Shown: piece after piece, positions 34,239 to 36,972 of the stretch | How the letters are laid out: every line of letters begins with the position of its first letter | Position numbering within the stretch: the stretch's first letter is position 1 | Notes under the pieces: generated by a model | Told to the model about the DNA's origin: nothing | The model's database searches: none | The model's input: the letters and a program-made list of their open reading frames with translations, nothing else | Made by a program: the position numbers and the translations under genes | Assembly (NCBI GenBank): GCA_030696085.1 | Contig: JAUYNL010000062.1 | Location: forward strand, 62,001 to 126,000 | Direction of reading: 5' to 3' | DNA from: Luteolibacter sp. | GTDB lineage: Bacteria; Verrucomicrobiota; Verrucomicrobiia; Verrucomicrobiales; Akkermansiaceae | DNA: 64,000 nucleotides

Positions 34239-34658
34239 TCAGGCGTGCGGATTGCGTGTAACGAGGCGGGTGCGGATGCCGAGCTTGTAGGAAGCGAGGC
34301 GCATGGCCTCCTTCGCTGCGGATTCAGGCACACCCCCGACTTCGAAGAGAATGTTGCCGGGGCGAATCACGGCCACCCAGCCTTCGACGGCACCCTTGCC
34401 CTTACCCATCCGGGTTTCCGGCGGGCGGGAGGTGATCGACTTGTGTGGGAAAATACGGATCCAGACTTTGCCTTTCCGTTTCAGCGAGCGATTGATCGCG
34501 ATACGGCAGGCTTCGATCTGACGATTGCTCATCCAGCCGCGGTCAAGGGTTTGCAGTCCGAAGTCACCGAAGGCGACAGTGGTACCACGCTGGGCGTTTC
34601 CAGAGCGGCTTCCGCGGTGGCTCTTGCGGAACTTGGTTCGTTTGGGCATCAAAGGCAT
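34239..34658 (-). CDS. rplP: 50S ribosomal protein L16
   Basis: The 139-residue protein organises the A site of the 50S subunit. [32 protein letters not shown] and [19 protein letters not shown] are diagnostic. Two Met codons (34658 and 34649) are possible starts three residues apart. Confidence 0.96.
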
Positions 34659-35496: not shown

Positions 35497-35925
35497 TCAG
35501 GCTTGATCTTCCACTGCGGCAGGAGCGGCGGCGGGAGCTTCTTCGGTTTTTTTGGAGACTGCCTTGCGGGCGATCTTCTTTTTCTTCTCGGGAGCGGAGC
35601 CCACGAGAGTGATGGAGATGTGACTGGAGCGACGGATGATCGGACCGGCGGATCCCTTTGCGCGGGGCTTGAAGCGGCGCTGGGTAGGAGCGGCACCGAT
35701 GACGGCTTCCTTGATAACCAGGGTTCCGGTATCCAGGGAGAAATTGTTTTCGGCGTCGGCGATCGCTGTTTTGAGAGTCTTGCCGATCAATTGGGCGGCC
35801 TTCTTGGGCGTGAAGGTGAGAATATCAAGGGCGCTCGATACCGGCAGACCTTGGATTTCCCGGGCGACGTCTCGCGCTTTCTTGGGCGAGAGACGAACGT
35901 ATTTACTGGTGCTTTTGACTTCCAT
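35497..35925 (-). CDS. rplV: 50S ribosomal protein L22 with Lys/Ala-rich tail
   Basis: The 142-residue protein reaches into the peptide exit tunnel and is a macrolide-resistance locus in other bacteria. STSKYVRLSPKKARDVAREI and RFKPRAKGSAGPIIRRSSHI identify it; the body ends near residue 110 and is followed by a KKKKIARKAV and Ala/Pro/Glu-rich tail. It lies 20 bases after the inserted non-ribosomal gene. Confidence 0.95.
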   Translation of the reverse strand: MEVKSTSKYVRLSPKKARDVAREIQGLPVSSALDILTFTPKKAAQLIGKTLKTAIADAENNFSLDTGTLVIKEAVIGAAPTQRRFKPRAKGSAGPIIRRSSHISITLVGSAPEKKKKIARKAVSKKTEEAPAAAPAAVEDQA

Positions 35926-35945
35926 AAGGAGGAGGACGTGAGGAG

Positions 35946-36671
35946 TTACTGCGCTGAGGCTTGTGTTTCGAGTATGGCGAGATCGCCGGGACGTGGTGTT
36001 TCGGCGGGATTGTCGAGGTTTTCGACAAACACACCGCTGACGCCCTTGCGGACATCTGCGAGAATTGCTTTTCCATAGGGCTGTTGCCCGCGGGAGAGTT
36101 GGAAGGTCATGCCGATTCTGGCACCCTGGCTTTCGCCAATATTGAGAACCAACATGCCACTTTCCTGATCGAGGCTGACGATCCGGGCCTGCTGGAGGGT
36201 ACCGGACCGGACATCGGGCCGGGGCTTTTGCCGCAGTCCCAGGACAGCGTCAAGCTCTCTTAGTGAAGTTTCGACGCGAAGTCTTGCATCCGGATCGGAA
36301 ATCACCGCCTGGCGGAGGTAATCGTTGACCGAAGCAGCGAGACGGGTGGCCGAGCCTTCAAGTTCGATCATGCGTTCGTTGGCGAGTTGCAGGTCCCCGG
36401 CAGCCTGGATGAGACGGTCATCGCCGCCATCAAGCAGGTTTTTGCCAAGCGCTTCGAGGCGTTCGCGGACTTGGGCGAGTTGCCCGGACGCTTGTTTTTC
36501 CCCGCGGTTGGCCTCGACGAGGCTGCGCCGGAGGGTCTGGTTTTGCGCCTGTAGTTCGATAATGACCTCCTGGAGCTTCTCGGGTCCCGGCGCTTGCGCG
36601 GCGCACACTCCAGCACCAGCCAGCAACCCGAGGGCGGCGGCAAAAGTTTTGGAATGGAAGATGCGACACAT
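35946..36671 (-). CDS. Exported coiled-coil protein inserted between rpsS and rplV
   Basis: I do not recognise the family. The 241-residue protein has a signal peptide (MCRIFHSKTFAAALGLLAGAGVCAAQA, about 27 residues with an AQA cleavage site). Residues 30-150 are a charged, Gln/Glu/Leu-rich coiled coil (LQEVIIELQAQNQTLRRSLV and following), and the C-terminal half is beta-rich (ARIVSLDQESGMLVLNIGES, GMTFQLSRGQQPYGKAILA). The latter resembles the C-terminal beta domain of flagellar or MreC-like coiled-coil proteins, only loosely. Its reading direction and tight spacing (28 bases from rpsS, 20 to rplV) make it part of the ribosomal transcript. Met at 36671 is chosen for the signal peptide. Confidence 0.75.
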   Translation of the reverse strand: MCRIFHSKTFAAALGLLAGAGVCAAQAPGPEKLQEVIIELQAQNQTLRRSLVEANRGEKQASGQLAQVRERLEALGKNLLDGGDDRLIQAAGDLQLANERMIELEGSATRLAASVNDYLRQAVISDPDARLRVETSLRELDAVLGLRQKPRPDVRSGTLQQARIVSLDQESGMLVLNIGESQGARIGMTFQLSRGQQPYGKAILADVRKGVSGVFVENLDNPAETPRPGDLAILETQASAQ

Positions 36672-36699
36672 AAAAGCGCGAGGGGAAACTGCGAGAGTC

Positions 36700-36972
36700 T
36701 TACTTTTTGCCGATCCCGCCGTGCTGGCGGAAGATTCGGGTCGGGGCGAATTCACCGAGCTTGTGACCGACCATGTTTTCCGTAACATACACGGGAACGA
36801 AGGTCTTGCCATTGTGCACGGCGAAGTTGTGGCTTACGAAGTCCGGCGTGATCATCGACTTGCGGCTCCAGGTTTTGATGGGCTTGCGGTCGGTTCCTGC
36901 GTCGGCGACAGCGTCAATCTTGGCGAGAAGCTTTTGATCAACGTAGGGGCCTTTCTTGAGGGAGCGTGGCAT
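36700..36972 (-). CDS. rpsS: 30S ribosomal protein S19
   Basis: The 90-residue protein contacts the 16S rRNA head and the A-site finger. [29 protein letters not shown] and [18 protein letters not shown] are the family signatures. It follows rplB by 30 bases. Normally rplV follows it directly; here an exported protein gene intervenes. Confidence 0.97.

Follow-up and report, generated by a model that had tools for sequence, protein, structure and literature searches.

A gene for a predicted exported coiled-coil and barrel protein lies directly upstream of rplV in many Verrucomicrobiota

The small β-barrels that are relevant to this work take part in rings: the crown of F1-ATPase, the flagellar T/H ring, and TsaP at the pilus secretin. 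FlgT, of the Vibrio H/T ring, ends in a small C-terminal β-barrel (FlgT_C, PF16538), for which membership is set by a curated cut-off of 27 bits. TsaP, a secretin-associated LysM protein of the type IV pilus machine, is recognised by its LysM domain together with a C-terminal FlgT-like domain. An N-terminal barrel is also found in subunits of F1- and V1-ATPases, which are cytoplasmic and carry a nucleotide-binding domain. A further point of comparison is MreC (PF04085), a cell-shape protein that works with the elongation machinery, and in which an anchor is followed by a coiled coil and a β domain.

The S10 operon is among the most conserved gene orders in bacteria. In nearly all bacteria, to our knowledge, rpsS and rplV are direct neighbours. 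Here we describe a gene that lies between them in Luteolibacter sp., within a window of 64,000 nucleotides (the whole stretch of DNA analysed). The protein is of a known kind, a coiled coil with a FlgT/TsaP-like barrel; the unusual part is its place in the S10 operon. The titles and opening lines of abstracts found by searching an open-licence library describe no gene between rpsS and rplV in Verrucomicrobiota, and the parts of PMC2474590 covered here contain nothing relevant to a gene in this slot. That the family, its location and its export topology are, taken together, as described below is almost certain.

The order of genes on the minus strand of the window is S10, L3, L4, L23, L2, S19, the gene described here, L22, S3, L16, L29, S17, L14, L24, L5 and S8, with EF-G upstream of S10 in the same cluster. 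S19, L22 and S3 were checked with Pfam, and the remaining genes were named by reading. An earlier, sequence-only reading of this DNA had placed the gene between rpsS and rplV, with spacings of 28 and 20 bases. Both the position and the spacings are borne out, Pfam identifying S19 upstream and L22 downstream on one strand (Table 1). A mechanical open reading frame would allow an alternative start upstream at 36812, inside rpsS. The proposed start at 36671 is supported by its M1, which is invariant across the 36 aligned homologues of alignment A1 (the window protein and 35 of the 43 related loci described below).

Table 1. Coordinates of the gene, its parts and its neighbours in the window.
Feature	Position (nt)	Strand	Basis
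rpsS (S19), upstream neighbour	36700..36972	-	Pfam S19, E 4.7e-36
Spacer between rpsS and the gene, 28 nt	36672..36699	-	
Gene for exported protein, 241 aa	35946..36671	-	ORF; signal-peptide-like N-terminus, long helix, C-terminal barrel
Residues 1-26, predicted signal peptide	36594..36671	-	A1 alignment, hydropathy test
Residues 30-144, predicted helices 30-125 and 127-144; most conserved stretch LEALGKNLLDGGDDR	36240..36584	-	AlphaFold model (helices), A1 (conservation)
Residues 157-237, predicted six-stranded barrel of F1-ATPase N-terminal / FlgT type	35961..36203	-	AlphaFold model, structure searches, A2
Spacer between the gene and rplV, 20 nt	35926..35945	-	
rplV (L22), downstream neighbour; linked to the gene in many lineages	35497..35925	-	Pfam L22, E 5.3e-33

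A scan of public genomes for relatives of the window protein gave 43 loci, with identities of 63–86% over the best segment. All 43 have the order S19, gene, L22 on a single strand; a contig end cuts S19 in L007 and L018, and L22 in L009. One of them (L037) comes from a strain record, Luteolibacter pohnpeiensis KCTC 22041, which is not labelled as a metagenome-assembled genome, and the gene order is therefore no artefact of metagenome assembly. The sequence-only reading had named a frame not conserved in relatives as a refutation. The frame is kept at all 43 loci, so that this refutation fails, and dN/dS (Nei-Gojobori) is 0.10–0.27 between the window gene and 20 of them. The gene is real and under purifying selection. 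Of the loci omitted from A1, L010 has a stop within the matched stretch, which is probably the true end of the gene, and L009, L017, L020, L023, L031, L035 and L044 were left out for a shorter set.

Export was assessed by a crude hydropathy test, used in place of a trained predictor, which requires a 12-residue stretch of mean hydropathy at least 1.8 within the first 60 residues. The threshold is passed by 30 of the 36 A1 homologues and by 66 of 69 slot proteins (a set that includes L094, which is no family member), against one of 15 controls. These controls are ribosomal or EF-G proteins, among them an L5 cut from inside its own gene; the single one to pass is L3. A test for a cleavage motif did not discriminate, as 13 of the 15 controls also passed it. 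Reading of A1 suggests that the signal peptide is perhaps cut after the small residue in C-x-A/G, before Q.

AlphaFold predicts a short N-terminal helix, a 96-residue helix, a second short helix and six strands. The confidence is moderate (mean pLDDT 75.8, pTM 0.34), with three of the five models at only 52–56, and the relative placement of the parts is for this reason unreliable. Residues 30–144 of the model probably form a coiled coil. The Pfam matches to this helical part, Phage_scaffold (E 0.0056) and ZapB (E 0.092), are below the cut-off and were taken as coiled-coil noise. The signal-like N-terminus and the long predicted helix support the proposal, made from the sequence, of an exported coiled-coil protein in the S10 operon, and the β-rich C-terminus that it included is also found in the model.

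Foldseek gave no match with E below 0.001 (the best is 1.8e-3). On realignment of the top 1000 Foldseek chains, residues 148–238, or part of them, superimpose on N-terminal barrels from F1 and V1 ATPases, and also on one chain from the LPHT ring of Vibrio. These matches are tied, with Z of 9.4–9.9 over 66–78 residues. Structure prediction and search thus point to a six-stranded barrel, with its nearest structures tied and with a model of moderate confidence. The ATPase barrels reach Z 9.9 over 69 residues with the same barrel arrangement, at 6–17% identity in the rows shown; they differ in being cytoplasmic, and their nucleotide-binding domain is absent from the window protein. The LPHT ring chain (8z5n_0), which we infer to be FlgT, gives Z 9.6 and an rmsd of 2.3 over 77 aligned residues; this Z is tied with those of the ATPase barrels and was obtained with the same moderate-confidence model.

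Sequence comparisons used a second alignment, A2, made from the last 85 residues of 39 slot proteins. PF16538 touches 9 of the 39 domain sequences (best E 0.0023); in that table unrelated families have isolated matches that are at least as good. The window domain lies below the FlgT_C cut-off. Unlike FlgT, the window protein has no other FlgT family match, and has a long helix before the barrel; the one PF16538 match in its own genome is below the cut-off and at another gene. HupF_HypC touches 7 of the 39 domain sequences, which was read as a chance match between small barrels. A2 also matches the C-terminal part of TsaP, with a whole-chain E of 2.4e-4 and a best single stretch of E 0.018 covering 40 of 84 A2 positions. 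Pfam finds no LysM in the window protein at E up to 10, which places it outside TsaP as defined above. The window protein is not assigned to any family by Pfam or NCBIfam: Pfam has no family for the domain at E up to 1, NCBIfam gives nothing, and phmmer against the PDB returned chance matches only.

The A1 profile matches in 49 of 288 genomes of the phylum, the window's own included. These comprise 32/32 genomes of the window's own family (f1), 6/6 of a second family in the same order (f2) and 11 others. All 22 genomes present of one genus (g2, probably Akkermansia) have a match. The rpsS–rplV slot, which the sequence-only reading had singled out for comparison across Verrucomicrobiota, holds the gene not only in the 43 loci but also in 48 of the 49 A1-positive genomes. 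The remaining match (L093, genome G181) has no S19 or L22 nearby and is taken as a chance match; this genome was counted as a miss on the position of that match alone.

The A2 domain profile, for which about the best 150 places were listed, matches in 214 of the 288 genomes, paralogues included. From the genomes missed by A1 and having a listed S19 place, 80 were chosen by hand for spread over families, and were scored for an A2 domain that lies in the orientation of L22 and no more than 400 nt upstream of it. At least 38 of the 80 have the domain there. In the other 42 it is absent upstream of rplV, among the matches listed, and there is therefore no universal need for the gene. Of the 80 genomes, 48 have S19 and L22 no more than 3 kb from each other on one strand, with the domain upstream of L22 in at least 14 and none in 34, among the matches listed. 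In the other 32 genomes S19 and L22 are apart or on different contigs (the latter being possible assembly breaks), and here the domain is upstream of L22 in 24, 16 by automatic comparison and 8 by hand (G083, G061, G037, G025, G079, G224, G055 and G129). The hand count comes from rechecking 30 of the 50 genomes initially without a domain upstream of rplV, including all 16 in the 'apart' class.

A detailed reading covered ten genomes in which S19 and L22 are apart; eight have the gene upstream of rplV, the exceptions being G046 and G186. Separation on one contig is certain in six genomes (G150, G117, G046, G006, G083 and G186), with the gene upstream of rplV in four. In these six (L114–L125) the S10 operon is broken after rpsS and before rplV, at the slot of the gene. 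At L115 the frame of the gene overlaps the start of rplV, as placed by tblastn. Seven extra genomes, picked because they had a domain hit (G260, G085, G140, G045, G160, G121 and G206), all have the domain upstream of rplV. Overall, the place of the gene was examined in 136 of the 288 genomes and is directly upstream of rplV in at least 93 (48/49, 38/80 and 7/7), which is a count and no estimate of frequency, since genomes were selected by hand and seven of them for a domain hit. Among the matches listed, a genome that bears the domain has between one and four copies of it in a sequence of millions of bases, and a chance link to rplV is thus no serious option.

Slots lacking the gene were also seen. 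Those of five fetched genomes (L109–L113), of 143–313 nt, hold no such ORF. The 552-nt slot of G257 (L094) holds an ORF without the domain, in a genome without a domain hit among the matches listed; this ORF is perhaps a copy that has decayed or diverged strongly.

These observations establish a gene family that is spread over many families of Verrucomicrobiota and lies directly upstream of rplV, whether or not rpsS is on its other side. The linkage is to rplV and not to rpsS, a point that the sequence-only reading did not contain. The window protein, with its hydrophobic N-terminus, its A2 barrel and its place directly upstream of rplV, is a member of this family.

A tree of 68 domains (FastTree) has the 48 tips of the slot family on one side and 20 paralogues from elsewhere on the other, with support of 0.90 for the split. 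The deeper branches are unresolved because the domain is short. The slot clade contains the 42 slot proteins entered and six more, four of which proved to be beside rplV. The remaining two (L142 and L143, from G016 and G173, of one genus) are away from rplV and are apparent relocations. The stretches fetched for the 20 paralogue domains have no match to L2, S19, L22 or S3. Paralogues in the phylum resemble the gene in having an N-terminal anchor, a coiled coil and a related domain, and differ in their place in the tree and in lacking adjoining ribosomal genes. A tandem pair of this type is found in the window's own genome, on contig C4 (L138, 5023–5832 and 5873–7504), and further pairs are present in L144, L146, L147 and L150. 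Comparison of A1 with one of the L138 paralogues by hhalign gave E 0.0016, at a probability of only 16%.

Members of the family begin with a hydrophobic segment and end in a barrel domain, the latter by construction, as it was the search key. In most of those read there is a coiled-coil-like stretch between the two. Seven loci read from families f3 and f12 (L090–L092 and L095–L098) encode proteins of 122–130 residues with a signal-like N-terminus and a barrel, without the helix, in the same place, and the same short form occurs, again in the same place, at L155 and L156 (f5). These short forms indicate that the barrel is the lasting core and that the stalk is not essential. In f30, f48 and f20 the N-terminus resembles, by reading, a charged segment followed by a membrane anchor.

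Between positions 34600 and 38000, a scan for terminator-like sites was negative on the minus (coding) strand, and both spacers were free of promoter-like sites; a single such site, inside rpsC, is about what chance would give. Given these results and the 28- and 20-nt spacers, the gene is quite likely to be cotranscribed with rpsS and rplV, as judged from the sequence. A Shine-Dalgarno-like sequence is present at one of the 17 starts listed on the minus strand between 31938 and 42038, that of L16 (the start of L29 was placed roughly). The related loci have none: 0 of 39–43 for L2, S19, L22 and S3, and 0 of 27 where the gene itself was scored. With such sites missing from nearly all of the operon, their absence before rplV is uninformative as to translational coupling.

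Because similar barrels form rings, and because the helix would provide a second surface for oligomerisation, we propose a periplasmic scaffold or assembly role for the protein. It would be made from ribosomal-protein mRNA, exported to the periplasm, and there oligomerise through barrel and helix, so as to support or help assemble an envelope structure. A place on ribosomal mRNA would tie the amount of protein to ribosomes, so that its supply from the operon would rise and fall with them and hence with growth. As a whole, this reading, of a periplasmic scaffold produced in step with ribosomes, is tentatively the best explanation, and the scaffold role itself is put forward with similar reserve. 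A secretin is a possible partner, as the genome has four secretin-domain matches; contact of the mature exported protein with the ribosome is unlikely. Counting against a scaffold are the occurrence of the same barrel fold in cytoplasmic ATPases, the lack of any Foldseek match below E 0.001 (the best is 1.8e-3) for a model of moderate confidence, the loss of the stalk in the short forms (f3, f12, L155 and L156) and the 42 of 80 genomes in which, among the matches listed, rplV is not preceded by the gene. Among the matches from all searches there is no homologue with a tested function.

Alternatively, the place in the operon may be meaningless for function: an envelope gene would have landed upstream of rplV in an early ancestor, and would have stayed there for the strong, constant promoter and because its excision would disturb the expression of rplV. 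We regard this as possible but rather doubtful. It fits the frequent absence of the gene just noted (among the matches listed), the two slot-clade proteins away from rplV in G016 and G173, which show that the gene can live elsewhere, and the paralogues of the same layout at loci without L2, S19, L22 or S3 matches. It fits less well with the retention of the link to rplV in 24 of the 32 genomes in which rpsS and rplV are apart or on different contigs, and in four of the six where separation on one contig is certain. Inertia on the rpsS side does not explain these retained links, although inertia on the rplV side could.

It is improbable that the protein is an MreC-like cell-shape protein, despite sharing with MreC the general order of anchor, coiled coil and β domain. 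NCBIfam MreC models do match 4 of the 39 domain sequences (best E 1.5e-4, in a table without a cut-off), and an MreC chain is the second hit of the PDB profile search (E 0.71). However, the window protein itself matches no MreC model in Pfam (PF04085) or NCBIfam, the genome has its own MreC, a different gene next to mreB and the sole PF04085 match, and the domain profile finds nothing in that protein (E 0.34, probability 0.2%).

A SecM-like regulator, whose exported nascent chain would sense secretion and tune translation of rplV, the product of which lines the exit tunnel, would account for the signal-like N-terminus, for the position immediately upstream of rplV even where rpsS is elsewhere and for the overlap at L115, but is very improbable, given that the last four columns of A1 vary (0.47–0.50, with gaps), that a pure sensor would not require a folded barrel under purifying selection, and that nothing marks the rplV start in an operon where 16 of the 17 starts listed lack a Shine-Dalgarno sequence. 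The motif PRxGDxAxL(E)T is nearly invariant just before those four columns, which fits the last strand of the barrel; a motif at that point is also possible.

Returning to a periplasmic scaffold supplied with the ribosomes, a bolder form would be an ancestral, hard-wired link between ribosome and envelope in Verrucomicrobiota, in which an exported ring or scaffold protein on the L22 mRNA makes assembly capacity scale with ribosome number. We consider this unlikely. The retention of an exported-protein gene beside rplV across many branches of the phylum, even with rpsS apart, is a strong evolutionary signal. With this gene one can test how bacteria adjust the growth of their envelope to the synthesis of ribosomes, and it is a possible marker gene. 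Its product is a candidate envelope protein in gut bacteria, through the genus that is probably Akkermansia.
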